Source of the DNA: Guptibacillus hwajinpoensis
Lineage (GTDB): Bacteria > Bacillota > Bacilli > Bacillales > Guptibacillaceae
DNA: 64,000 nucleotides
Direction: 5' to 3'
Assembly: GCF_001039475.1 (NCBI RefSeq)
Contig: NZ_LELK01000004.1
Coordinates: 1,022,330-1,086,329, forward strand
Shown: piece by piece, positions 16,357 through 29,927 of the stretch
Numbering within the stretch: the stretch's first letter is position 1
How the letters are laid out: each line of letters opens with the position of its first letter
Program-made: the position numbers and the translations under genes
The notes under the pieces: generated by a model
Database searches by the model: none
The model's input: the letters and a program-made list of their open reading frames with translations, nothing else
Told to the model about the DNA's origin: nothing

Positions 16357-16977
16357 TTAATTTTGTCCCATAAAGTGCAAGAAAAATGCGAGATCCGCTT
16401 CAAGGTGTTTCTTCATTAGTTCTTCTGCTTCTTCTGGATTCCGGTTTCTGATTGCCTGGCAAATCTGATCATGCTCATCAATCAAATGTGGCCGCTTATG
16501 ATAGACAACGGTTTTACGAAAAAGGTAAATGATCGATTGCATTCGGTCCATTATTTTAATCATTACTTTGTTGTTGTTCGTGTCTAAAATAATTTCATGA
16601 AATGCTTTGTTAGCTTTCATAATTTCTTCGGTTGTTCCATTTCGTCCGATGTCTACACATTTTTGTAACTCTTCAATCGCTTCCTCACTCATATACGTAG
16701 CTGAAGCGCGTGCAGCAAATCCTTCTAAAAGAATACGAACTTGAAAAATTTCTCTCATATCTTTTTCAGTTGGCAGGACGACTCGTTTATCTTGAATTAG
16801 ATCTTCTTGCTCAAGCTTACGAATCGCTTCTCTAATCGGCGTCCGACTTACTCCAAGTTCTTTAGCAAGCTTTTCTTCTACCAACTTTGTACCGCCTGCA
16901 ATCTCTCCGTTTAAAACTTTATCTCGAATACTTTCATAGGCATGCTGATAAGCAGATTGTGAAGCATTTTTTTTCAT
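16357..16977 (-). CDS. GntR-family (FCD) transcriptional repressor
   Basis: A 206-residue regulator: winged helix at about 10-75 (LVEEKLAKELGVSRTPIREAIRKLEQEDLI) and an FCD effector domain at about 80-200, with the metal-binding residues expected in NKAFHEIIL, DEHDQICQAI and KKHLEADL. FCD domains usually bind carboxylic acids through a metal ion. It is divergent from the dehydrogenase/kinase/permease operon, and the intergenic region holds a 37-bp palindromic site containing two TTGTATACAA boxes, the type of sequence FCD-GntR proteins bind. It is therefore the probable local repressor, with the acid-sugar substrate or an intermediate as inducer. Confidence 0.88.
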   Translation of the reverse strand: MKKNASQSAYQHAYESIRDKVLNGEIAGGTKLVEEKLAKELGVSRTPIREAIRKLEQEDLIQDKRVVLPTEKDMREIFQVRILLEGFAARASATYMSEEAIEELQKCVDIGRNGTTEEIMKANKAFHEIILDTNNNKVMIKIMDRMQSIIYLFRKTVVYHKRPHLIDEHDQICQAIRNRNPEEAEELMKKHLEADLAFFLHFMGQN

Positions 16978-17083
16978 AATGAACTCCTGTTAGTAACAAT
17001 TTAGTTTCTAAATAAACTATTCACTTACCAATTCTATCACTTAAATTATAGAGCGAAACATCCCTAATGAAAAGCGATCAGTA

Positions 17084-17120
17084 ATTTTGTATACAATTTA
17101 ATTAAAATTGTATACAAAAT
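17084..17120. promoter_or_regulatory. 37-bp palindromic operator for the FCD-GntR repressor
   Basis: Two perfect 16-base arms, ATTTTGTATACAATTT and its reverse complement, are separated by five bases (AATTA). Each arm contains the palindrome TTGTATACAA. A possible promoter, TTGTAT (17087-17092) with TATACA (17111-17116), lies inside the arms, so binding would block it. A further GTGTACAC palindrome lies at 17131-17138. Confidence 0.8.
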
Positions 17121-17150
17121 ACAAAATATCGTGTACACTCAAAACAAGAA

Positions 17151-17165
17151 ATGAAAGCGCTATTA
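17151..17165. promoter_or_regulatory. candidate CcpA cre site
   Basis: ATGAAAGCGCTATTA matches the cre consensus WTGNAANCGNWWNCW at 14 of 15 positions. It lies between the operator/promoter and the dehydrogenase start, a typical repressing position for carbon catabolite control. Confidence 0.5.
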
Positions 17166-17179
17166 AAAAAGGAGAGGTT

Positions 17180-18091
17180 ATGATGAATGAAAATATAGGA
17201 TTTATTGGTTTAGGAATTATGGGTAAGCCGATGGTAAAAAATTTAGTGAAGTCCGGCATGAAAGTAACCGTCTTTGATATTAATCAAAAAGCTGTGCAAG
17301 AATGTGTTGAATTTGGAGCAAGTGGTGCTCACTCCCCAAAAGAAGTTGCAGCAGAGAGTTCAATCATTTTGACGATGCTTCCTAATTCCAATCACGTGAA
17401 AAGTGTTATTACAAATGAAAGCGGAATCATTCAAGGAGCTAAGGAAGGAACGGTAGTTGTGGATATGAGTTCTATATCTCCCGTTGTTTCAGAAGAGCTA
17501 GCTAATGAATTACGCAACAATGGCATTCATATGCTCGATGCACCTGTAAGCGGTGGGGAGCCAAAAGCAATCGATGGAACATTAGCAATTATGGTAGGTG
17601 GAGAAGAGAAAGTGTATGTGAGAGTGCTTCCTGTTCTGCAACATCTTGGTAAAGACATTACCTTAGTTGGAGGAAATGGGTGTGGTGCTACAGCAAAGTT
17701 AGCTAATCAGATTATGGTTAATGTGAATATAGCAGCAATGTCTGAAGCGCTTGTTCTAGCTTCAAAAGCGGGAATTGATATTGAGAAAATGTATCAAGCG
17801 ATTCGTGGAGGCCTTGCAGGAAGTGCCGTATTGGATGCGAAGGTTCCGCTCATTCTTGAAAGAAACTTCGTAGCTGGAGGAAGAATAGATATTAATATGA
17901 AGGACCTAACAAACGTGATGGAAACAGCTCATGAAATGGGTGTTCCACTTCCTCTTTCAAGTCAAGTTCTTGAGATGTTTAGTGCTCTTAAAGTAGATGG
18001 CAAAGCTGGTGATGACCACGGTGGTCTTGTGCAGTATTATGAGAGTTTGGCAAATACAGTCGTAAAAAAGGAAGTGAAAGAGCATGTCTAA
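17180..18091 (+). CDS. beta-hydroxyacid dehydrogenase (GarR/LtnD-like)
   Basis: A 303-residue NAD(P)-dependent 3-hydroxyacid dehydrogenase (tartronate semialdehyde reductase / L-threonate dehydrogenase / 3-hydroxyisobutyrate dehydrogenase family). Seen are the Rossmann motif IGFIGLGIMGKPM near the N-terminus, the substrate loop DAPVSGGEPKAIDGTLAIMVGG, and NGCGATAKLANQIMV with the catalytic Lys. Translation could also be read from 17108, but AAAGGAGAGG directly precedes the ATGATG at 17180/17183, which also fits the family N-terminus. It overlaps the kinase start by 8 bases. Next to a DUF1537 kinase it is most likely a 2-dehydrogenase for a four-carbon acid sugar such as threonate or erythronate. 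Confidence 0.87.
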   Translation: MMNENIGFIGLGIMGKPMVKNLVKSGMKVTVFDINQKAVQECVEFGASGAHSPKEVAAESSIILTMLPNSNHVKSVITNESGIIQGAKEGTVVVDMSSISPVVSEELANELRNNGIHMLDAPVSGGEPKAIDGTLAIMVGGEEKVYVRVLPVLQHLGKDITLVGGNGCGATAKLANQIMVNVNIAAMSEALVLASKAGIDIEKMYQAIRGGLAGSAVLDAKVPLILERNFVAGGRIDINMKDLTNVMETAHEMGVPLPLSSQVLEMFSALKVDGKAGDDHGGLVQYYESLANTVVKKEVKEHV

Positions 18092-19511
18092 CCAGTTAGT
18101 AATCGAAGAGATTCCGAAATTAAAATCGATAGATTACGAGGCAATTTCTAATCTGTGGAAAAAAGAGCGATCTGATTTTAACCATCAGATCGTGGTGTTA
18201 GATGATGATCCTACTGGAGTACAGACTGTTCATGGGGTATCCGTTTATACAGATTGGACAGAAAAAACAATTAACCTGGGGTTTGAAGAAGAGACTAGTA
18301 TATTTTTCATTCTTACGAATTCACGGGCATTGTCTGAGCAAGACACTAGAAATCTTCATCATACGATTGCAGAACGTGTTGGCCGCGTTGCACGTGACCT
18401 AAATAAACCTTATCTCATTATTAGTAGAGGGGATTCAACTTTACGAGGGCACTATCCTCTCGAAACAGAAGTTATGAAAGACCGTATCGAAGAGAGCGAT
18501 GAACCGATAGATGGTGAAGTGATTATCCCATTTTTTAAAGAAGGCGGCCGCTTGACGATCGATAACATTCACTATGTTCAAAATGAGAGCGTTCTAATTC
18601 CGGCAGGTGAAACGGAATTTGCTAAAGATCGAACGTTTGGATTTAAATCAAGCGACTTAACTGAGTGGGTTGAGGAAAAAACGGCTGGAGAATTTACAAA
18701 AGAAGAGGTTACTTCGATATCTCTTGAGGATATTCGTGAACTGCGAATTGATAAAATAGTAGACCAATTAGCCGATGTATCTGATTTTGGAAAGGTTATT
18801 GTCAATGCGGTTGAAGAAGAAGATATTAAAGTATTTACAATTGCATTAATGAAAGCTATGAAAAATGGAAAACGCTTTATTTTTAGAACAGCAGCAACGT
18901 TCACAAAGATCATTGGTGATATTTCATCTAAGCCTCTTCTGACAAGTGAACAATTAATTGCGAAAGACGCCACCAGTGGAGGACTTATTGTTGTTGGTTC
19001 TCACGTACAGAAATCAACTGATCAACTAAATGCATTAAAAGAACTCTCTCAAGTGCATGCGATTGAATTTGACTGTCACCTAGTTTTGGAAGCTGAAGCG
19101 TTCAAATCCGAAGTAAAGCGCGTTAGGGAAGAAGCAGAAGCGAAGGTTGCAGAAGGAACAACCGTTGTCATCTATACGAGAAGAGAGCGATTAGATCTCG
19201 GTGAAGGAATGAAGGAAGAGGAGCTTAAACTTTCAGTTGAGATATCGAATGCTGTAACGAGTATTGTAAGAGACTTCTCCGTTGCACCTAAATATGTTAT
19301 TGCGAAAGGCGGCATTACGTCTAGTGATGTTGGAACGAATGGTCTTCAAGTGAAGAGAGCGACTGTTCTCGGACAGGCGGCGCCTGGCATTCCCGTTTGG
19401 GAAACGGATGAAAATAGTAAATTTCCACACCTTCCTTATATCATTTTCCCCGGAAATGTTGGGGCAGTCACAACGCTTAGAGATATTGTTCAAAATATAG
19501 AGAGGGTATAA
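18084..19511 (+). CDS. four-carbon acid sugar kinase (DUF1537, OtnK/DtnK-like)
   Basis: A 475-residue kinase of the DUF1537 family, known to phosphorylate 3-oxo four-carbon acid sugars (3-oxo-tetronates) or D-threonate. The N-terminal domain has the signature VLDDDPTGVQTVHG near 39-52 and RGDSTLRGHYPLE; the C-terminal nucleotide-binding domain has KGGITSSDVG and PGIPVW. Its ATG lies inside the end of the dehydrogenase gene, so translation is coupled. Known pathways then use a decarboxylase (OtnC) or PdxA2-type dehydrogenase; neither is adjacent here, so the next step must be encoded elsewhere or the pathway differs. Confidence 0.88.
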   Translation: MSNQLVIEEIPKLKSIDYEAISNLWKKERSDFNHQIVVLDDDPTGVQTVHGVSVYTDWTEKTINLGFEEETSIFFILTNSRALSEQDTRNLHHTIAERVGRVARDLNKPYLIISRGDSTLRGHYPLETEVMKDRIEESDEPIDGEVIIPFFKEGGRLTIDNIHYVQNESVLIPAGETEFAKDRTFGFKSSDLTEWVEEKTAGEFTKEEVTSISLEDIRELRIDKIVDQLADVSDFGKVIVNAVEEEDIKVFTIALMKAMKNGKRFIFRTAATFTKIIGDISSKPLLTSEQLIAKDATSGGLIVVGSHVQKSTDQLNALKELSQVHAIEFDCHLVLEAEAFKSEVKRVREEAEAKVAEGTTVVIYTRRERLDLGEGMKEEELKLSVEISNAVTSIVRDFSVAPKYVIAKGGITSSDVGTNGLQVKRATVLGQAAPGIPVWETDENSKFPHLPYIIFPGNVGAVTTLRDIVQNIERV

Positions 19512-19536
19512 CCTTTCAAACGGAGGAGTTGACAGT

Positions 19537-20883
19537 ATGGTAACTGGTAACATGCTTATCTTAATCTTTTTGCTTTCGCTCGTCGCCTTGTTTGTTCTAA
19601 TATTAAAATTCAAGCTTGAGCCTTTTCTGGCATTGATTGGCGTTGCGTTTGGGACAGCACTTATCATTGGAATTCCAATTATTGAAATACCAGGCATTAT
19701 CACGACCGGCTTCGGTAATACTCTTGCTGGAGTTGGAATTCTAATTGGACTTGGTGTGATTTTTGGACAGTTTCTAGCTTCTTCAGGAGCTGTTGAGAAA
19801 ATTGCCCAATCGGTACTGAAAGTTTTCGGAGCTAAGAAATCAGCAGCTGGACTTGCACTTACCGGAACAGCCGTATCAATTCCTGTTTATTTTGACGCTG
19901 CATTCGTTATATTAACAGGTTTAATCAAGAGTCTTTCAAGAAAAACGGGCATTTCAATTGTCACGTTTGTAACTGCTCTCGGTGTAGGTTTAATCGTGTC
20001 ACATAGCATGATTGCTCCAACGCCAGGACCGCTAGTTGTCGCTGAGAATACTGGTTCAGATTTAGGACTGTTCATAATCTACGGACTCGTTTGCGCGATC
20101 CCTGCGACATTAGTAGGTGGATATTTCTATGGAATGTTTATCGGAAAGCGCGTTCAGTCTAAACCTGATGAAGCAGAACAAGAAGTAGCGGTAGCGAGTG
20201 AAACACCGTCGAAGGAAATTAGTACGGGATTAGCTTATGCGATGCTAGTGCTACCAATCGCCCTTATTTTAGCAAATACCGTTTCACAGCTTCTTGTTCC
20301 TGGCACTACTTTTGCATCAACACTCGCTTTTATTGGGGATAAAAACATGGCGCTGTTCATAAGTGTAATCGTTGCCATTCTAGTGCTAACTCCTTATATC
20401 AATGCACCAAAGCAAACACTGTATACAGATGCCGTTAACTCAGCTGGTGTTATTCTACTTATCACTGGTGCAGGTGGTGCATTTGGAGCAGTAATCAATC
20501 AGAGCGGTATTGGTGATCATTTAATCCAAACGATGCAGAACTGGAGTATTCCTGCTCTACTGCTAGCCTTTATTTTCTCTCAAATTCTGCGTGCTTCATT
20601 AGGATCAACAACTGTTGCGCTTGTAACGACATCAAGCATACTTGGTCCACTTGCTCTTGATCTTGGTGTATCACCTGTCTTATTGGGTCTTGCTATTTGT
20701 GCCGGTGGTGTTGGACTTTCGCTACCGAACGATTCTGGATTCTGGGTGGTTAGTCGTTTTGGTAAATTAACAGTACCTGAGACAATTAAAGCTTGGACCA
20801 TTGGAGGCTTTATCGCAGGATTAAGTGCACTAGGTATGGTATATCTCCTTAGTGTTTTCTCTGGAATTTTACCAGGTATTTAA
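19537..20883 (+). CDS. GntP-family gluconate/acid-sugar permease
   Basis: A 448-residue integral membrane permease with about twelve hydrophobic segments. Family features include LEPFLALIGVAFGTAL near the N-terminus, the loop HSMIAPTPGPLVVAE, GAGGAFGAVINQSGIGD and LCxGGxGLSxPNDSGFW-like residues near the C-terminus. GntP permeases take up gluconate-like acids by proton symport. It starts 25 bases after the kinase stop with a CGGAGGAG site and ends the operon at a terminator. With the kinase and dehydrogenase it defines a small acid-sugar utilisation unit. Confidence 0.9.
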   Translation: MVTGNMLILIFLLSLVALFVLILKFKLEPFLALIGVAFGTALIIGIPIIEIPGIITTGFGNTLAGVGILIGLGVIFGQFLASSGAVEKIAQSVLKVFGAKKSAAGLALTGTAVSIPVYFDAAFVILTGLIKSLSRKTGISIVTFVTALGVGLIVSHSMIAPTPGPLVVAENTGSDLGLFIIYGLVCAIPATLVGGYFYGMFIGKRVQSKPDEAEQEVAVASETPSKEISTGLAYAMLVLPIALILANTVSQLLVPGTTFASTLAFIGDKNMALFISVIVAILVLTPYINAPKQTLYTDAVNSAGVILLITGAGGAFGAVINQSGIGDHLIQTMQNWSIPALLLAFIFSQILRASLGSTTVALVTTSSILGPLALDLGVSPVLLGLAICAGGVGLSLPNDSGFWVVSRFGKLTVPETIKAWTIGGFIAGLSALGMVYLLSVFSGILPGI

Positions 20884-21202: not shown

Positions 21203-22075
21203 TTATTTTACCCATTCATTAATCAAATCTTGGTTCTCTTTAACCCATTTCCGAGCCCCATCAACAGGCTCATCGCTACTTTCTACATAGTGAATAAGTT
21301 CGGCGACTTGTTGATCATTCATCTTCCAATTTTTGAACCACTTGCTTACTTCTGGGTAGTCTTTTTCAAATCCTTGTCTTGTAGCATGGTGGATTTTTTC
21401 CACACCTCCGTATGTATTTTGTGAATCTTCCAGAAATTTTAAGTCATATTTGGAAAATACCCAGTGTGGGCTCCAAAGTGGCGCTACAATTGGTTCTTCA
21501 TCTTTTACTGCTTTTTTAATTTCAGCTAACATGGCGGATTCAGAGCTTGGTACTAATTCAAAATCAAGATTATAGTCCTTAATTAATTGTTCCGTCACTT
21601 CCATCGTACCTGCTCCTGGATCAAAACCAACAATTTCACTATTGAACATTTCTTTATGTTCTTTTAAGTCTTTTACGCTATTAATGTCTTCTAAATAGGT
21701 AGGAACAACAAGGCCTACTTTTGCATTGTCAAACCAAGTCGCATCTGAGAAATTAACCGTATCTTGATATTTCTCCAAATAGTTAGCATCCTGGACGGGT
21801 AACCATACTTCTAAACTAGCATCTAAATCGCCACTGTCTAAGGCCGTCATTGTTGAACCCATGTTCAAATAGTTAAACTCCACATCGTACCCTTTATCTT
21901 CTAGAATAACTTTCCACATATTTGTGACGGCAATATTTTCAGCCCAACTAATTTGACCAATTGATAATGTTTTATCCTTTTCCTCTGATGCTGTACCTGC
22001 TTGGTCATTGTTTCCGCATGCTGTCAGTACAGCAACCATTATAATGGCTAAAATAAAACTAAGTCCTTTTTTCAT
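21203..22075 (-). CDS. glycine betaine/choline ABC-type substrate-binding lipoprotein (OpuAC-like)
   Basis: A roughly 290-residue lipoprotein with signal MKKGLSFILAIIMVAVLTAC (lipobox LTA-C) and an OpuAC-type domain: IGQISWAENIAVTNMW, MDSGDLD-like DALEVWLP region, and PLWSPHWVF. The tryptophans in these blocks are candidates for the aromatic cage that holds the trimethylammonium group. The start at 22075 is chosen because AGGGGAG precedes this ATG and the upstream extension lacks signal-peptide character. There is no ATPase or permease gene beside it, so it is an orphan binding protein that must use a transporter encoded elsewhere, or act as a solitary component. It lies downstream of gbsR on the same strand. 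Confidence 0.85.
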   Translation of the reverse strand: MKKGLSFILAIIMVAVLTACGNNDQAGTASEEKDKTLSIGQISWAENIAVTNMWKVILEDKGYDVEFNYLNMGSTMTALDSGDLDASLEVWLPVQDANYLEKYQDTVNFSDATWFDNAKVGLVVPTYLEDINSVKDLKEHKEMFNSEIVGFDPGAGTMEVTEQLIKDYNLDFELVPSSESAMLAEIKKAVKDEEPIVAPLWSPHWVFSKYDLKFLEDSQNTYGGVEKIHHATRQGFEKDYPEVSKWFKNWKMNDQQVAELIHYVESSDEPVDGARKWVKENQDLINEWVK

Positions 22076-22207
22076 GTTGATTAACTCCCCTGTTGTATTT
22101 AGTATTATTTCCAAAACATCCAAATAATTTAATTCATTAAGAATTTATTTAACGAAAATACAAAACAAATCTACCTTTCTTATGTAATAGTGGAACATTG
22201 TTATAAC

Positions 22208-22259: not shown

Positions 22260-22811
22260 TTAATCTTGTTGATCCTTCGGTAAGAATTCGAATATCTTGC
22301 CGCTTCTTATACTTTCAACTAAGTCATCCAACCAGTAATAGTATTTTTTAGACTCTTCTAATTGATCATAGTGTTTCTTTGCGGTTGCAACAATTTCTGG
22401 TGTACTAGTGGAATCTTTTATGATATCTATGAAATCTTCTTGTGACTCCTCAATTGCTTCCAAATTCATTTTTACTTCGCGTTCCCACATTTGACAATAG
22501 AACGCCATAAAGGAACGGAAGAAATTTTTCTCCGCTACGTAAGTATGTTTCCTAGAACCGCGTGTGAATGTTTTTTTTACCATTTCTATTTCTTGAAGCT
22601 TTCGGACGCTAGTACTCATACTTGGTTTGCTCATTTCGAGTTCTGTACGCATTTCATCAAGTGTCATCTGATCTTTAAAGTACATCGTTGCGTATAAATT
22701 TGCAGCAGCTGGTGTTACACCATATAAATCCATAGTCTCTGCAATGGCGCCAATAACTTTATCTTTGGCTTCTTCTATTTTAATTTCGTGTCTTTCAATA
22801 GATTCACTCAT
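22260..22811 (-). CDS. gbsR: GbsR-family choline-responsive transcriptional repressor
   Basis: A 183-residue MarR-like regulator matching GbsR in length and build. Seen are a winged helix-turn-helix in the middle (VTPAAANLYATMYFKDQMTLDEMRTELEMSKPSMSTSVRKL, split here only by reading order) and a C-terminal alpha-helical region. B. subtilis GbsR represses the choline-to-betaine genes gbsAB and the choline importer and is released by choline. The start at 22811 is preferred because GAAGGAGCG precedes that ATG; an upstream extension would have no ribosome binding site. It is divergent from gbsA, as in B. subtilis, which supports the name. Confidence 0.9.
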   Translation of the reverse strand: MSESIERHEIKIEEAKDKVIGAIAETMDLYGVTPAAANLYATMYFKDQMTLDEMRTELEMSKPSMSTSVRKLQEIEMVKKTFTRGSRKHTYVAEKNFFRSFMAFYCQMWEREVKMNLEAIEESQEDFIDIIKDSTSTPEIVATAKKHYDQLEESKKYYYWLDDLVESIRSGKIFEFLPKDQQD

Positions 22812-22872
22812 TAGGTCGCTCCTTCGGTATAAAGTAAACCACATTAAATATTTAAAAAATATTCTTTACAAA

Positions 22873-22884
22873 GTTAATGTTAAC
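22873..22884. promoter_or_regulatory. candidate GbsR operator, distal
   Basis: GTTAATGTTAAC contains two GTTAA-type half-sites in an imperfect palindrome, near the gbsR start. A similar sequence lies at 23029. Assignment to GbsR is an inference from repetition and position. Confidence 0.4.
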
Positions 22885-23007: not shown

Positions 23008-23039
23008 TTGACAGCCTTAACATAGCATGTTAACGTTAA
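23008..23039 (+). promoter_or_regulatory. candidate gbsA promoter with overlapping operator
   Basis: A perfect TTGACA (23008-23013) is followed 17 bases later by a weak -10 (TAACGT, 23031-23036), which lies inside the palindrome GTTAACGTTAA (23029-23039). A repressor bound there would cover the -10 region. Confidence 0.5.
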
Positions 23040-23096
23040 GTGTGTTAAATAAATTTTTAATAAACTTAACTTAATTCAAAATTGGAGTTGATAGAT

Positions 23097-24569
23097 ATGA
23101 ATCTAAAACTACAACAATACATAAATGGCAAATGGGTAGAAGCGAACTCTGGGAATACACGTACTATTATTAATCCATTTAACCAGGAGGTTATTGCTAC
23201 TGTTCCAGAAGGTGATGAATCAGATGCAAAAGCAGCGATTGCTGCAGCAAGAGAAGCATTTGATAACGGAGAATGGGCTACTACACCAGCAACTGAGCGA
23301 GGAGCTATCGTAAGAAAAATTGCTGAATTCATTGAAAGAGACAGTGAAGAACTAGCTCACTTAGAATCGTTGGATACAGGTAAAACAGTTGAAGAAAGCC
23401 GTGGAGACATGGATGATATCGCTGGAGTATTTCGTTATTTTGCTGAACTAGCAGATAAAGATGGTGGAGAACTAATCGATTCCCCAGTACCTAACTCGAT
23501 CAGCAAAGTGGTCCGTGAACCAGTTGGTGTATGTGGCCAAATTACTCCTTGGAATTATCCTCTTCTTCAAGCGTCCTGGAAACTAGCTCCTGCGCTTGCG
23601 ACAGGAAATACGTTGATTATAAAGCCAAGTGAAATTACACCGCTCACTCATATAAAAGTCTTTGAACTGATGGAAGAAGCAGGAGTGCCTGCCGGTGTTG
23701 CAAACCTAGTTCTTGGAGCTGGCGATACAATTGGCAGCGAGCTGTCTAGTAATGAGGATGTAGATCTGATTTCTTTCACAGGTGGGATTGCAACCGGAAA
23801 GAAAATTATGCAAGCTGCAAGCATGAATGTGAAGAAACTTGCACTTGAGCTTGGCGGGAAAAACCCGAATATTATTTTCGCTGATGCTGATTTTGATATT
23901 GCAGTGGATCAAGCGTTAAACGGAGTATTCTTCCACGCAGGACAAATTTGTTCAGCTGGTACTAGATTGATTGTAGAAGAAAGCATTCACGATGAGTTCG
24001 TTAACGCGCTTGTTGAGCGAGTGAAGAAATTCAAACTAGGAAGCGGATTTAATGAAGATACTCAAATGGGTCCTCTAATTTCGGCAGAACATCTTGAGAA
24101 AGTAGAAAAGTATGTAGAAGCAGGGATTCAAGAAGGTGCTACAGTAGCAGTAGGCGGTAAACGCCCAGAAGATCCTGAATTGCAAAAAGGCTTTTTCTAC
24201 TTGCCTACGATCTTCACAGATTGCACCACAGACATGAGTGTTGTACAAGAAGAAGGGTTTGGTCCAATTATTACGGTTGAGAAATTCAGTACAGAAGAAG
24301 AAGCGGTCAAACTATCGAATGACTCGATCTACGGACTTGCTGGCGGCGTCTTTACAAACGATATTGCAAAAGCGGAACGCTGTGCAGCGAAAATGCGCAT
24401 GGGTACTGTTTGGATCAATGAATTCAACCTTTATTTCCCACACGCACCGTGGGGTGGATATAAGCAATCTGGTATCGGGCGCGAACTAGGTAAATTAGGT
24501 ATGGAAGAATATACAGAAACAAAGCATATCTTCCAAAACCTTAAGCCTGAAACGATCAACTGGTTCTAA
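23097..24569 (+). CDS. gbsA: betaine aldehyde dehydrogenase
   Basis: A 490-residue NAD-dependent aldehyde dehydrogenase, the same length as B. subtilis GbsA. It oxidises glycine betaine aldehyde to the osmoprotectant glycine betaine in the cytoplasm. Catalytic residues are E251 in LELGGKNPN and C285 in AGQICSAG, with TPWNYPL and FTGGIATGK in the cofactor site. An upstream in-frame TTG exists at 23082, but ATG 23097 has GGAG at good spacing and begins with the expected MNLKLQQYINGKW. It is divergent from gbsR and 170 bases upstream of a BetA-type choline dehydrogenase, which supports the choline pathway role. Confidence 0.92.
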   Translation: MNLKLQQYINGKWVEANSGNTRTIINPFNQEVIATVPEGDESDAKAAIAAAREAFDNGEWATTPATERGAIVRKIAEFIERDSEELAHLESLDTGKTVEESRGDMDDIAGVFRYFAELADKDGGELIDSPVPNSISKVVREPVGVCGQITPWNYPLLQASWKLAPALATGNTLIIKPSEITPLTHIKVFELMEEAGVPAGVANLVLGAGDTIGSELSSNEDVDLISFTGGIATGKKIMQAASMNVKKLALELGGKNPNIIFADADFDIAVDQALNGVFFHAGQICSAGTRLIVEESIHDEFVNALVERVKKFKLGSGFNEDTQMGPLISAEHLEKVEKYVEAGIQEGATVAVGGKRPEDPELQKGFFYLPTIFTDCTTDMSVVQEEGFGPIITVEKFSTEEEAVKLSNDSIYGLAGGVFTNDIAKAERCAAKMRMGTVWINEFNLYFPHAPWGGYKQSGIGRELGKLGMEEYTETKHIFQNLKPETINWF

Positions 24570-24739: not shown

Positions 24740-26422
24740 ATGACTGAATCATATGATTATGTAATTGTTGGTGGTGGTAGTGCGGGTTCTGTACTCGGCA
24801 ACCGCCTAAGTGAAGATGGAAAGAAAAGTGTGCTTGTATTAGAGGCTGGACGAAGTGATTATTCATGGGATCTCCTGATCCAAATGCCAGCAGCTCTACC
24901 TTTTCCATCAGGAAAAGATCTCTACGATTGGCAATACGAGACGGACCCTGAGCCATACATGAAGGGAAGGAATATCCCGCATGCTAGAGGGAAGGTGCTC
25001 GGCGGTTCTAGTTCTATTAACGGCATGATCTATCAACGCGGAAATCCGATGGACTATGAGCGATGGGGAGCAGACACAGGTATGGAAAGTTGGAATTTTG
25101 CTCACTGTCTTCCTTATTTCAAACGATTGGAAAATGCTCTGGCATCACCGGATGATGATCTTCGCGGTCACGACGGTCCGATCAAATTAGAACGCGGACC
25201 TGCCAAGAATCCATTATTCCAGGCATTCTTCAATGCGGGTGTAGAAGCTGGTTATTCACGTACTCCGGATGTGAACGGCTTTCGTCAGGAAGGTTTCGGA
25301 CCGTTTGATAAGCATGTGTACAAAGGTCAGCGTCTGTCCGCTTCACGTGCCTACCTACATCCATTTATGGATCGTGAGAACTTAACGGTGAAAACACGTG
25401 CTTTTGTTTCGAGCATCGACTTCGATGGTAAACGTGCCAAAGGATTGACGTATCGCCGAAACGGAAAAACTCATCAAGTTGAAGCAGGTGAAGTAATTCT
25501 TTCAGGCGGTGCGATCGCCACGCCGCAAATGCTTCAACTAGCAGGAATCGGGGATGCTAAACATCTTCGCTCCCTTGACATCGAACCGATCGTAGACCTT
25601 CCTGGAGTAGGCGAAAACCTTCAGGATCACCTGGAAGTCTATGTGCAACATACATGTCCAGAGCCTGTTTCTGAACAGCCTAATCTAAGTAAAGCGCGTA
25701 TGCCTTGGATTGGCTTGCAGTGGATGCTTGGACGAACTGGACCAGCAGCAACCAATCACTTCGAAGGTGGAGGGTTCGTACGTTCAAACGAGGATGTTGA
25801 TTACCCGAACTTAATGTTCCACTTCCTTCCTGTCGCGGTACGATACGATGGTCAAAAAGCGGCTACAAAACACGGATTCCAAGTACATATCGGACCGATG
25901 TACTCTGATGCCCGCGGCTCATTGAAAATTCGCTCGAAAGATCCGAAAGAACATCCGAGCATGGTGTACAACTACCTTTCTACAGAACAGGACAAGCGTG
26001 AGTGGGTAGAAGCGATTAAAGTTACTCGTGACATTATGTCTCAACCAGCCATGAAAAAATATAATGGCGGCGAAATCTCACCTGGTCCTTCTGTGCAAAC
26101 AGAGGAAGAAATCCTTGAGTGGGTGAAAGAAGATGCTGAGACGGCACTTCATCCATCATGTACTTGTAAAATGGGACCTAAGTCAGATCCTATGGCTGTC
26201 CTAGATCCGGAAACGATGAAGGTGCACGGAGTGGAAAACCTACGAGTGGTCGATGCATCTGCTATGCCTTACGTTACGAACGGCAATATCCACGCACCAG
26301 TATTGATGTTAGCGGAAAAGGCAGCGGATCTCATCCTTGGACGTAAACCGCTGGATCCAATTGATGCGGACTTCTATCGTCATGGTGTACATCCGGCCGA
26401 TGCAGGAACAGTAACAGAATAA
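24740..26422 (+). CDS. betA: choline dehydrogenase, GMC oxidoreductase (BetA-like)
   Basis: A 560-residue FAD-dependent GMC oxidoreductase. The dinucleotide motif [16 protein letters not shown] is at 8-23; the GMC signatures [18 protein letters not shown] and [11 protein letters not shown] are present; active-site histidines are H471 in [10 protein letters not shown] and H518 in [10 protein letters not shown]. BetA oxidises choline to betaine aldehyde (and can continue to betaine). The ribosome binding site is AAGGAGG. Bacillus subtilis uses the NAD-dependent type III alcohol dehydrogenase GbsB for this step, so a GMC enzyme directly after gbsA, under apparent GbsR control, is an unusual mix of Gbs and Bet systems. 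Substrate is inferred from neighbours; other alcohols are possible. Confidence 0.86.
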
Positions 26423-26914: not shown

Positions 26915-26957
26915 AAAAAAAGCTTACTTCATAAAAATTAATGAAGTAAGCTTTTTT
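26915..26957 (-). terminator. terminator of the choline symporter gene
   Basis: A perfect 12-bp stem, AGCTTACTTCAT with ATGAAGTAAGCT, is flanked by A6 and T6 tracts. It lies directly after the minus-strand symporter stop and could also stop plus-strand transcription. Confidence 0.92.
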
Positions 26958-26978: not shown

Positions 26979-28607
26979 TTATGAGGCAATCTTTTCATTA
27001 CCGTTCTCTCTCTCTTTTGGCATTAATAAAGGCATAGGTGGACACATTTTTTTAGTCATTTTAGAAACAACGATAATCGTAACTAAGCCTGCAACCATTG
27101 CGAGCGTACGAAATGGAAACAGTACTATGCCGTCTTCAATCATGGGATATGGTAGGAAGACTGGAAGTCCAATGATTGGTTCTCCGCCACCAATTCGAAG
27201 GATGAAAGAAACGATTAATCCTGCAATTGAACCGTATTTATTTGCATCTTTAAAGAACAAAGCGGTAGTTAACTGAGGAAATAGAATAACATATACAAGG
27301 TCTGCAGCAAGATACCATAAAGCATAAACACTTTGAACATTTAGTGCAATGATGGTGGCTGCAATACCAACAAGGATGATCGAGCGCTTAATCATTTTCT
27401 TAAGTTGATCGCTTGATGCATTGGGTTTGAAAAGTGGTCGATACACATTCCACGCAGCCATGGAAGATGCTGATAGAATGGAAGAGTCCATTGAAGACAT
27501 CACGGCTGCAGCGAGAGCTCCCAATCCAATTGCACCAATAATATCAGGCGTTAAATATTGCAAAACATAAGGAAGAATCATAGATGGGTTTTCGGGAGCC
27601 TCTAAACCGAGACTTGCCCAATCTGTATCTAATCCGATAGCACCTATGATAACGGCTGGTATGGCTGCAATAATACAGATAAATCCTGCTATGATTGAAA
27701 GCCACATTGCAGTGTTCTCCGTTTTAGCAGAAAGAACACGCTGGAAATATACCTGCCAGGGAATTCCTCCGAATATTAGTAATAATGCAAAGTCCCACCA
27801 GTTCCAATAATAGTTTCCCCACTCAGGATCTTTCCACCCATCTAGTGGTGGAAACAGACTTGCATAGCTCCCCATATCTGATTGATAGTGACCCCAAACC
27901 GAACTTAAGCCACCTACCTCTGATAGGGCAAAAGGAAGTACTAAGAACAGACCGATCATGACTGCGAGCATTTGAAAAACATCAGTAAAGGCAACTGACC
28001 ACATACCTCCAACGACAGTGTACGCAACGGCAATTATCGCTGATAGAATAATAGATGTTTGAAAGTCTAAACCCAGAATCGTTCCAAAAGTTGTTCCTAA
28101 AGCTGTTAAAATCGCACCACTCCAAAAGACTTCACCTAATAGAGCGGGGATATATAAGACACCAGCAACTTTCTTACCGAAGCGCTGTTCAAGTGGATCA
28201 ATCATTGTCATAAATTCGTATCGACGCATTTTTCTAGCATAGAAGATACCGCCAATAATTAAACTTAGTGCATAACCCCATGGCGCCTGGGCCCATGCTA
28301 ATCCAAGTGAATACGTTGATTCTGCAGTACCAGATATGTAACCCCCGCCGACCCAGGTGGCAGCCATTGTAAACATCGAGATCCATAATGGTAAGGACCG
28401 TTTCGCTACCATCATATCTGATGCAGATTCAGATTTGCCACTGGCCATAAAAGCACCGATATAATAGATTATTCCATAGAATACTAACATGGCAATAAAT
28501 GAGCCCCAGTTAATATTTGAATTTGACGTTCCTAAATAAATAAACATTATTAAAACAGCTGCTACAAATGTACCTATTTTTAAAAGATTTCCTTTTCGTT
28601 CACTCAA
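26979..28607 (-). CDS. sodium:solute symporter, CHT1-like probable choline transporter
   Basis: A 542-residue SSF-family (SLC5-type) membrane protein with about thirteen hydrophobic segments. It carries long blocks that I recognise from the animal high-affinity choline transporter CHT1 (SLC5A7): ATWVGGGYISGTAE near 83-96, GLAWAQAP just after, SVAFTDVFQ, and GGIPWQVYFQRVLS near 279-292. Human CHT1 has nearly the same residues in each block. This, plus the adjacent choline oxidation genes, supports sodium-driven choline (or related trimethylammonium) uptake. The start is TTG with a GAGGTGAAGG site. It is transcribed toward betA and ends at its own strong terminator. It has no close Bacillus counterpart among the usual OpuB/OpuC/OpuD choline systems. 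Confidence 0.8.
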   Translation of the reverse strand: MSERKGNLLKIGTFVAAVLIMFIYLGTSNSNINWGSFIAMLVFYGIIYYIGAFMASGKSESASDMMVAKRSLPLWISMFTMAATWVGGGYISGTAESTYSLGLAWAQAPWGYALSLIIGGIFYARKMRRYEFMTMIDPLEQRFGKKVAGVLYIPALLGEVFWSGAILTALGTTFGTILGLDFQTSIILSAIIAVAYTVVGGMWSVAFTDVFQMLAVMIGLFLVLPFALSEVGGLSSVWGHYQSDMGSYASLFPPLDGWKDPEWGNYYWNWWDFALLLIFGGIPWQVYFQRVLSAKTENTAMWLSIIAGFICIIAAIPAVIIGAIGLDTDWASLGLEAPENPSMILPYVLQYLTPDIIGAIGLGALAAAVMSSMDSSILSASSMAAWNVYRPLFKPNASSDQLKKMIKRSIILVGIAATIIALNVQSVYALWYLAADLVYVILFPQLTTALFFKDANKYGSIAGLIVSFILRIGGGEPIIGLPVFLPYPMIEDGIVLFPFRTLAMVAGLVTIIVVSKMTKKMCPPMPLLMPKERENGNEKIAS

Positions 28608-28841
28608 ATACCTTCACCTCTAGTAATTTTAAATTAAAATCATTTCTAGTCGTATCCCTGTTTGGGAAGCTTAGGTTTGATTTTTCTTTAATCGATAAAT
28701 TTCATTTTTTACTGATTGGAAGCTGTAAACAAATCGTTTTAGTCTCTATAAAATTTTGTGAGGTTTTGCGCCAAGTCAATTATATTGGAATCACATTTCC
28801 TATTCATTTTATTCAACTTCTTAAAGCTCCTTTCATTCAGA

Positions 28842-29081
28842 AAGTTAATTTTGTTAAATATTTTCTTAACGTATTTAATAAATATTACATGATTAGATTT
28901 TGTTGTCAAATACACTATCGATATATAAATAGTCATAGATCACTATTTTAAGGTTGGGCAAGAAGTATACAAATATCTAATTTCGGTGGTAGATTGCTTA
29001 AACTTTTTGACAGATAAAAGCATAGATGATAGCATTTAAGTTCGTTGAAAACGTTTAAAAAACATTTAACAAAATTAACTT
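28842..29081. repeat. 18-base motif in inverted orientation, upstream of symporter and TetR
   Basis: ATTTAACAAAATTAACTT is found on the minus strand at 28842-28859 and identically on the plus strand at 29064-29081. Each copy faces the gene it precedes. It also resembles the GTTAA repeats in the gbsR-gbsA region (TTAACATTAACTTTG on the minus strand there). It may be an operator for TetR or GbsR. Confidence 0.5.
29045..29059. promoter_or_regulatory. candidate CcpA cre site
   Basis: TTGAAAACGTTTAAA fits the cre consensus at 14 of 15 positions. It is immediately next to the plus-strand copy of the 18-base motif, in the symporter-TetR intergenic region. Confidence 0.4.
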
Positions 29082-29333
29082 CTTTAGGCATGTTCCTGTA
29101 TTTAATAACGTCGAAAGCTCAATGGATACTATAAATGGAATTGGCATTAGTTCTTGATTATGAAACAAATGAAGAAAAGAAGAAGTCGTTAGAAGGTATA
29201 TAGATTAATTGTATACGGAACGGTTCAAGGCGTTTCGGAGATTGTTGAAAATAGAGCCTTTTTAAGATAGTGATGAAATCTAGTAGGTAACAAATGAGCT
29301 CATTAGTCTGAGGTACGTAAGGAGTGATCATAC

Positions 29334-29927
29334 ATGTCATCTACAACATTTCCTATGATTGAACGAATCGAACGAGCAGCTCTACCATTGTTTGCGAGAA
29401 AAGGTTTTGAAGGGACATCATTAAGTAAAATTGCTAAAAGTGTCGGAATTAAAAAACCCTCCTTATATGCCCATTTTGATAGTAAAGAAGATCTCTTTCT
29501 CTCTATTCTTCAAAAAGTGAATCGAGATTATCGGGATTTTCTAGAAAGGCAAGCACATAAGTATCGCAATATGAGAACGGAGCAGAAGTTATATTGCTTG
29601 TTAAAAGATCATACAACTTATCTTGAAAATGAAGATCTAGGTCTTCTATTCAAGAGATTTATGCTTTTCCCACCGCTAGTATTGAAAGATACACTTAATG
29701 AACAGTTTATTAAATCAGAGAAAGCATTAACGGATGTATTGATTGAGATTGTAAAAGAAGGAAAGCGAAGAGGAGATATCCAGGCAGATCAAAGTGAGGC
29801 AATTGATGCTTATATATGCTTACTAGATGGCACATTTGAACAGCTTTTTTATTATTCTGAAGTGGTACATGAGGAGCGACTTCAAAACGCCTGGCGTATT
29901 TTCTGGAGAGGCATTCAGGGGTGTTAG
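29334..29927 (+). CDS. TetR/AcrR-family transcriptional regulator
   Basis: A 197-residue regulator. The N-terminal helix-turn-helix (about 8-55) reads AALPLFARKGFEGTSLSKIAKSVGIKKPSLYAHFDSKEDLF split over the usual TetR helices; the rest is an alpha-helical ligand domain with no recognised motif. An AAGGAG site precedes the ATG by nine bases. It is divergent from the CHT1-like symporter, and its control region carries the same 18-base motif, so it may regulate that gene, itself, or both. No ligand can be proposed. Confidence 0.85.
   Translation: MSSTTFPMIERIERAALPLFARKGFEGTSLSKIAKSVGIKKPSLYAHFDSKEDLFLSILQKVNRDYRDFLERQAHKYRNMRTEQKLYCLLKDHTTYLENEDLGLLFKRFMLFPPLVLKDTLNEQFIKSEKALTDVLIEIVKEGKRRGDIQADQSEAIDAYICLLDGTFEQLFYYSEVVHEERLQNAWRIFWRGIQGC

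Follow-up and report, generated by a model that had tools for sequence, protein, structure and literature searches.

A bacterial counterpart of the neuronal choline transporter CHT1, predicted to supply betaine synthesis in Guptibacillus hwajinpoensis

The salt-loving Bacillus relative Guptibacillus hwajinpoensis appears to carry a bacterial version of the choline pump of human nerve cells, a statement well supported by sequence comparison. The gene, here called cht, lies within a 64,000-nucleotide stretch of contig NZ_LELK01000004.1 (the window), close to gbsR, gbsA and betA. We propose that its product, a CHT-type symporter, brings in choline for oxidation by BetA and GbsA to glycine betaine, and that cht belongs to the choline-responsive GbsR/CudC regulon. 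To this statement as a whole we assign a probability of roughly 0.78. Its basis is computed and consists of family membership, the residues of the choline and Na+ sites, recurrent linkage to choline genes and a shared operator-like site. The features concerned are the following:

21203 to 22123, minus strand: gene for a gbsU-like, orphan OpuAC-type substrate-binding lipoprotein (PF04069, 232 bits)
22124 to 22161, minus strand: operator-like site upstream of the gbsU-like gene (22.8 bits; pattern match with 3 mismatches)
22260 to 22844, minus strand: gbsR/cudC, predicted choline-responsive MarR-type repressor (NF047500, 280.3 bits, cut-off 218)
22844 to 22881, plus strand: operator-like site upstream of gbsR (19.6 bits)
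23036 to 23073, plus strand: operator-like palindrome before gbsA, one of the sites from which the matrix was built (52.1 bits)
23082 to 24569, plus strand: gbsA/betB, betaine-aldehyde dehydrogenase (TIGR01804, 724 bits, cut-off 669)
24740 to 26422, plus strand: betA, choline dehydrogenase (TIGR01810, 895 bits, cut-off 732)
26916 to 26957, no strand assigned: terminator-like hairpin that can be read on either strand, separating the convergent genes betA and cht
26979 to 28607, minus strand: cht, CHT/SLC5A7-type Na+/choline symporter (542 aa, TTG start)
28841 to 28878, minus strand: operator-like palindrome directly after the −10 box of cht, predicted to be a GbsR site (24.4 bits)
28882 to 28909, minus strand: promoter-like TTGACA-16-TAATAT of cht, in a block conserved in 8 aligned sequences of the genus
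29045 to 29082, plus strand: second, weaker operator-like site upstream of cht (17.1 bits)
29334 to 29927, plus strand: TetR-type regulator gene, divergent from cht

The cht reading frame is open over 26979-28607 on the minus strand, and the plus strand has many stops there. Its TTG start is preceded by a GAGGTG ribosome-binding site that is identical in eight aligned upstream regions of the genus. The only Pfam family found in the protein at E 0.001 is the sodium:solute symporter (SSF) family PF00474 (137.5 bits, cut-off 22.8); the BCCT domain PF02028, the hallmark of BetT, CudT and OpuD, is absent at the same threshold. The NCBIfam model of the SSF superfamily scores 177 bits against a cut-off of 184. 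In a phmmer search of the PDB, the cht protein retrieved the CHT homolog of Salimicrobium flavidum (sfCHT, 9RWS) with 830 bits and human CHT1 with 428, followed by vSGLT with 82, a gap far beyond the similarity of a generic SSF protein, as the first-pass annotation had anticipated. The reciprocal search, started from the corresponding stretch of human CHT1, gave 394 bits for 9RWS and 51 for the next hit, SGLT1. The sequence blocks on which that annotation had relied are all there: ATWVGGGY (residues 83-90), GLAWAQAP and GGIPWQVYFQRVLS, the last differing from human CHT1 at one position (V/A). Identity is 69.9% with sfCHT (362/518) and 49.6% with human CHT1 (234 of 472 aligned pairs), or about 40% (40.3%) over the 580-residue chain. 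PMC13220886, as far as its text was available to us, gives 34 to 38% for bacterial homologs against CHT1, a lower figure that probably reflects a longer denominator.

sfCHT is the closest described counterpart of the protein. In the available text of the Science Advances article of May 2026 (PMC13220886; structures 9RWS/9RWT), it is described as mediating Na+-dependent choline uptake in proteoliposomes and as inhibited by hemicholinium-3, and cryo-EM structures are reported. Using the residue positions given there for the choline cage, the Na+ site and the exit path, we found all 14 functional residues named for sfCHT both in the cht protein and in human CHT1. The cage residues W99, Y126, W176, W298 and W445 of sfCHT correspond to W85, Y112, W162, W284 and W431 of the cht protein, and the Na+ site (A97, T98, V100 and Q226) and the exit path (R84, A220, Q303, R304 and S307; both in sfCHT numbers) are conserved as well. 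Replacement by alanine of the sfCHT residues that match W85, W162, W284 or W431 is reported to abolish uptake. Among the best 80 of 99 confirmed relatives, R84, T98, W99, Q226, W298, Q303, R304 and W445 are invariant (80/80), W176 is kept in 79 and Y126 in 77, the other three having F. By contrast, of 11 other SSF proteins of the genus, not one has the complete five-residue cage. By analogy with sfCHT at 70% identity, the cht protein would adopt the LeuT fold with 14 transmembrane helices and would carry out Na+-coupled choline uptake. The two proteins come from different genera, and it is sfCHT whose transport has been assayed.

Phylogenetic analysis was consistent with these similarities. 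In both a quick tree (62 rows, including 48 of the 80 CHT loci after thinning) and a careful one (49 rows, with six CHT rows and seven outgroup rows removed), the cht protein, sfCHT, other bacterial CHTs and human CHT1 are grouped together, apart from PutP, PanF and other SSF proteins, these being represented by proteins of the window's own genus (99 and 100/99). This placement bore out the claim of homology to CHT1, for which grouping with PutP or PanF had been named in advance as the refuting outcome. Identity as PutP or PanF was rejected also on scores of 88.3 bits against the TIGR02121 cut-off of 515.5 and 75.5 bits against the TIGR02119 cut-off of 328, and the residues are likewise contrary to both. 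One might still suppose that a generic SSF symporter (PutP, PanF or a carrier of another substrate) stands beside choline genes by chance, given that Pfam shows just the SSF domain, that no NCBIfam equivalog cut-off is reached and that the one plasmid record found carries only the annotation 'sodium:solute symporter family protein'. Against this speak the scores far below the PutP and PanF cut-offs, the position in the trees, the cage that is complete in 0 of 11 other SSF proteins of the genus, and the linkage to choline genes and the operator-like site described below; as far as sequence allows, the generic reading is already refuted, and we regard it as exceedingly improbable. The cht protein is, on its sequence, a member of the CHT (SLC5A7-type) branch of the sodium:solute symporters, and the narrower claim that it is a CHT-type choline symporter seems to us very probable.

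The genes around cht fit a choline importer. Along the window, the lipoprotein gene and gbsR on the minus strand are followed by gbsA and betA on the plus strand, the hairpin, cht on the minus strand and the TetR gene on the plus strand; the naming of gbsR, gbsA and a BetA-type enzyme as neighbors had been part of the first-pass annotation, and all three exceed the cut-offs of their curated models (280 against 218, 724 against 669 and 895 against 732 bits). Translation of gbsR probably starts at the internal ATG of MSESIERHE, before which a ribosome-binding site is conserved, and that of gbsA probably at the ATG at 23097, judging from the conserved spacing to GGAG. No ABC ATPase or permease was recognised among the ORFs neighboring the gbsU-like gene, and in having no adjoining ABC partner the lipoprotein is like GbsU as described for Halobacillus halophilus (PMC6207618, in the parts available). 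There, as in the window, an orphan lipoprotein gene adjoins gbsR, and the two point away from gbsA and a BetA-type gene (gbsR-gbsU/gbsA-gbsB), whereas no SSF gene is mentioned for these operons in the accessible text of the same article. The cudTCAB genes of Staphylococcus xylosus likewise bring together CudC/GbsR, a betaine-aldehyde dehydrogenase (BADH), a BetA-type dehydrogenase and a choline transporter (PMC6207618, same parts), but CudT is a BCCT carrier and the transporter of the window an SSF protein. An SSS gene also stands beside gbsR-gbsA-type genes in B. licheniformis and B. megaterium, and in 2018 it was speculated to encode a choline importer; the clusters there use GbsB whereas that of the window uses BetA, and the SSS genes are not termed CHT-type in the available text (PMC6207618). 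Human CHT1 (SLC5A7; PDB 8J74, 9BFI) has the five cage residues and the Na+-site residues in common with the cht protein, but is neuronal and feeds acetylcholine synthesis, whereas cht is predicted to feed betaine synthesis. Elsewhere in the window, at 16357-20883, we noted by eye genes for a GntR-type regulator, a 3-hydroxyisobutyrate-dehydrogenase-like protein and an OtnK-like protein, followed by a GntP permease (GntP by Pfam); this looks like a sugar-acid utilisation cluster.

The association of CHT with choline oxidation recurs in other genomes. One genome per species was scanned, and the best 80 of 99 confirmed relatives, which come from seven phyla, were kept, more distant ones being missing from the set; up to 10 kb on each side of CHT was then searched for BADH, BetA and GbsR. 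For comparison, 34 control loci were treated in the same way, namely 14 from the genome of the window (other SSF, BCCT and OpuAC-type genes) and 20 places with other SSF genes from eight further genomes of the genus, hand-picked from a list and not random. At strict thresholds, at least one of the three genes was found near 59 of the 80 CHT loci (best 80 of 99) against 1 of the 34 controls, and an enzyme gene near 48 of 80 against 0 of 34, figures to be read with the reservation that the controls all come from the window's genus and the CHT loci from seven phyla, and that contig ends cut several loci (e.g. L032, L067, L068, L071), an effect that could make linkage look rarer but not commoner. 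At loose thresholds the counts for the same best 80 of 99 loci became 60/80 against 5/34 for any gene and 49/80 against 4/34 for an enzyme, the four controls being aldehyde dehydrogenases, 43-46% identical, beside another SSF gene. In 40 of the 80 loci (best 80 of 99), GbsR, BADH or BetA is encoded on the same strand as CHT within 400 bp. Sorted at loose thresholds, the best 80 of 99 loci comprise 49 with an enzyme gene, 11 with GbsR only, 6 with only a gene resembling phosphatidylcholine synthase (Pcs) and 14 with none of these. Related loci are not independent, and we therefore also thinned the set to 48 representatives, of which, again at loose thresholds, 31 have an enzyme, 3 the regulator only, 5 Pcs only and 9 none.

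Several individual loci deserve mention. That of sfCHT itself (L062, whose protein is identical to the PDB sequence in 511/511 compared residues) encodes BetA, BADH and CudC above the curated cut-offs. It resembles the window in these genes, in the 14 functional residues and in the 69.9% identity of the transporter, but cht is divergent from BADH-BetA-gbsR there and convergent with betA in the window. In members of Cyclobacteriaceae (L093), Spirochaetota (L084) and Pirellulaceae (L089), the neighbors best match models of choline dehydrogenase and betaine-aldehyde dehydrogenase; every one of the choline dehydrogenases scores above the cut-off of its best model, and so do the aldehyde dehydrogenases of L084 and L089, that of L093 missing it narrowly (653 against 669). 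The neighborhood of choline-oxidation genes pointed out in the first-pass annotation thus recurs across phyla, and these genes have an operator-like element in common with cht. Nine of the 14 loci that lack the tested choline genes belong to Actinomycetota, mostly Actinopolyspora (L052, L070-L072, L074-L077, L080). Gene order varies within one genus: in one arrangement cht and betA converge, in the other gbsR and cht share a strand while gbsA-betA point away from gbsR (L022, L023 and L082 against L024-L027). Relatives of the gbsU-like gene above the threshold (40% identity, 200 aa) were seen at three of the 80 loci (best 80 of 99), namely L022, L023 and L082. Ten of the 11 loci with GbsR only (best 80 of 99) are from Halobacillus and the other from Fictibacillus. 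Short BADH-like matches lie beside gbsR-cht in Halobacillus (L040:8709-8861, 47 aa; L045:8602-8850, 85 aa), and decay of a BADH gene at this site is possible.

A second kind of neighbor was first spotted by eye near 15 loci and then searched for in all 80 loci and the 34 controls. A Pcs-like gene lies beside CHT at seven of the best 80 of 99 loci (L067, L073, L078, L086, L090, L092, L098), in Bacteroidota, Acidobacteriota and Planctomycetota; at L067 it occurs together with a BetA-like gene. All seven, when scanned, had phosphatidylcholine synthase models as their best matches, with 129 to 215 bits, all below the equivalog cut-offs. Used as queries over the 80 loci, the seven produced one extra weak match (L049, 28% over 121 aa), which we did not count as Pcs, and they had no match in the 34 control loci. 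Pcs joins free choline to CDP-diacylglycerol, so that two unrelated choline-using pathways accompany the CHT family; this second linkage, found in other phyla, points independently to choline as the family's substrate.

Aromatic cages bind many trimethylammonium compounds, and a cluster that also encodes an orphan OpuAC-type binding protein could in principle handle a related quaternary amine (glycine betaine, carnitine, acetylcholine or choline-O-sulfate) instead of, or besides, choline. We consider such a substrate for the cht protein very unlikely, as the neighbors of CHT use choline by two routes in different phyla (betaine synthesis at 49/80 loci and Pcs-like genes at 7/80, in the best 80 of 99) and as choline uptake and its block by HC-3 are reported for sfCHT, which has the functional residues in common with it (PMC13220886, available parts).

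Both trees place human CHT1 among the bacterial rows; the row nearest to it by path is a Phycisphaerae protein (L092). However, human CHT1 and the outgroups are on long branches, and an AU test, with a single animal sequence, did not reject a position of human CHT1 outside the bacterial clade (p 0.235). A joint reading of the trees and neighborhoods would be that CHT is an old, dedicated bacterial choline importer, coupled to one choline-using pathway or another depending on the phylum (to betaine synthesis in Bacillota, Bacteroidota and Spirochaetota, and to phosphatidylcholine synthase in Acidobacteriota, Saprospiraceae and a member of Planctomycetota), and that animal CHT1 arose within it, for instance by transfer from a Bacteroidota- or Planctomycetota-like donor. 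We put this forward tentatively, as a possibility that is rather doubtful at present.

The regulatory part of our proposal starts from the sequence upstream of cht. In eight such sequences of the genus, a TTGACA and a −10-like box are followed by a palindrome that resembles the one preceding gbsA. The promoter-like match is weak when taken alone, 13 promoter-like sites having been observed against 10.5 expected in the region scanned. The palindrome was modeled with a matrix built solely from eight gbsA-upstream sites, the window's own among them. In the window, the gbsA training site ranks first (52.1 bits) and the cht site next (24.4 bits, and 24.0 on the other strand), compared with a control maximum of 15.1 bits over 1,309,214 positions; that best control site (L120) sits inside a coding ORF and looks like chance. 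Fourteen genomes of the genus were searched, and in each of the 13 that have cht a site of at least 21 bits precedes it. A pattern fitted with knowledge of both the gbsA and the cht site matches the 4.26 Mb genome three times when up to 3 mismatches are allowed, each time within this cluster, and the same pattern read backwards has one match in that genome. Thirty-two of the CHT loci (best 80 of 99) contain an operator-like site of at least 13 bits; those of the Bacteroidota loci L093 and L100 are away from cht and BADH and look like chance.

The GbsR of B. subtilis represses gbsAB and opuB in a choline-responsive manner, acting as a roadblock from a binding site downstream of the promoter (PMC7396694, as far as available). 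The cluster of the window has the regulator gene and, common to cht and gbsA, a palindrome downstream of the promoter, which leads us to predict that cht belongs to the choline-responsive GbsR/CudC regulon; its choline induction and roadblock repression would follow from the analogy with B. subtilis GbsR (PMC7396694, same parts). The palindrome might instead be the site of another regulator, leaving cht outside the GbsR regulon: it was found by comparison, its binding being a prediction, and a TetR-type gene (29334-29927) is divergent from cht. We judge this unlikely, because such sites precede gbsR, gbsA, the gbsU-like gene and cht, among which gbsR is the sole regulator gene, and because a position just downstream of the promoter suits the roadblock mode of GbsR (PMC7396694, available text).

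With cht placed in the GbsR regulon, the system could work as follows. High external Na+ would drive choline inward through CHT. As long as choline is lacking, the promoters of cht, gbsA and the gbsU-like gene would be held in check by GbsR bound to the palindrome directly behind each; choline entering the cell would release the repressor, and importer and enzymes would rise together. BetA and GbsA would then oxidise the choline to glycine betaine, an osmoprotectant. Such betaine can also be degraded further, and CHT stands beside a Pcs-like gene in other phyla, both of which would suit an importer that serves mainly catabolism (carbon, nitrogen) or lipid headgroups rather than osmoprotection. 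This emphasis seems improbable to us for the window, where none of the eight neighboring proteins scanned with NCBIfam models is a betaine-degrading enzyme and where the GbsR/CudC-gbsA-betA layout is that of osmoprotectant clusters (PMC6207618, in its available parts).

As an importer of choline, cht is not the sole candidate in this genome. Six BCCT carriers are encoded as well, together with additional binding-protein genes of the OpuAC type; the main uptake of choline may therefore run through another system, and the idea that CHT replaces the usual choline systems was rejected on these grounds. None of the six BCCT genes is among the genome-wide matches of the operator pattern. The first-pass annotation had spoken of a different route of choline uptake: as an additional route this stands, as an exclusive one it does not. 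It had also suggested a possible bacterial model for CHT1, which is apt but already realised, since a bacterial model exists in the characterised sfCHT (PMC13220886, parts available).

CHT is sparsely distributed in the phylum, where 1 of 398 sampled genomes, that of the window itself, has a match at E 1e-80. A search of 41 genomes as relatives found it in 13 of the 14 of the genus, the remaining one having no match at E 1e-80, and in 1 of the 27 others. The nearest named CHT loci (best 80 of 99) are those of Pseudalkalibacillus, and several host names are ones that we take to be names of halophiles. Among IMG/VR viral contigs, 25 stretches matched the search pattern and none was confirmed as a CHT relative. 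A single match at E 1e-80 was obtained among 72,556 plasmid records, on Priestia megaterium plasmid NZ_CP140268.1; this CHT (L148) is 63.2% identical, adjoins betB and an iron-containing alcohol dehydrogenase gene, and bears no annotation beyond 'sodium:solute symporter family protein'. The CHT-gbs cluster lies between flagellar genes on this 410 kb plasmid.

Two elements of this account are already known from the available parts of the respective articles, namely the bacterial CHT type (PMC13220886, 2026) and the speculation about an SSS choline importer in gbs clusters (PMC6207618, 2018). The words 'operon' and 'phylogen' are absent from the main text of PMC13220886; a 2021 review of prokaryotic SSS transporters (PMC7918813) does not contain 'CHT' in its accessible text, where three mentions of choline do not concern an SSS choline carrier; and the accessible parts of two papers on halophiles (PMC2412884, PMC5027565) have nothing on a CHT. 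Among the matches listed from the open-licence literature, no paper joins CHT identity to the gbs regulon or to Pcs. New here, at the level of sequence, are the operator-like palindrome before cht, modeled from gbsA-upstream sites only, and the linkage of CHT to betaine-synthesis genes in a set of loci from seven phyla (49 of the best 80 of 99 relatives).

According to the available text of PMC13220886, the physiological roles of prokaryotic CHT homologs 'remain unclear'. Linkage and operator-like site together suggest a specific answer for Bacillota, where CHT is predicted to be a choline-inducible importer of the betaine pathway; the CHT gene of S. flavidum likewise lies beside that pathway. 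Genes annotated only as 'sodium:solute symporter family protein', as in the one annotated record, may accordingly receive a better name.
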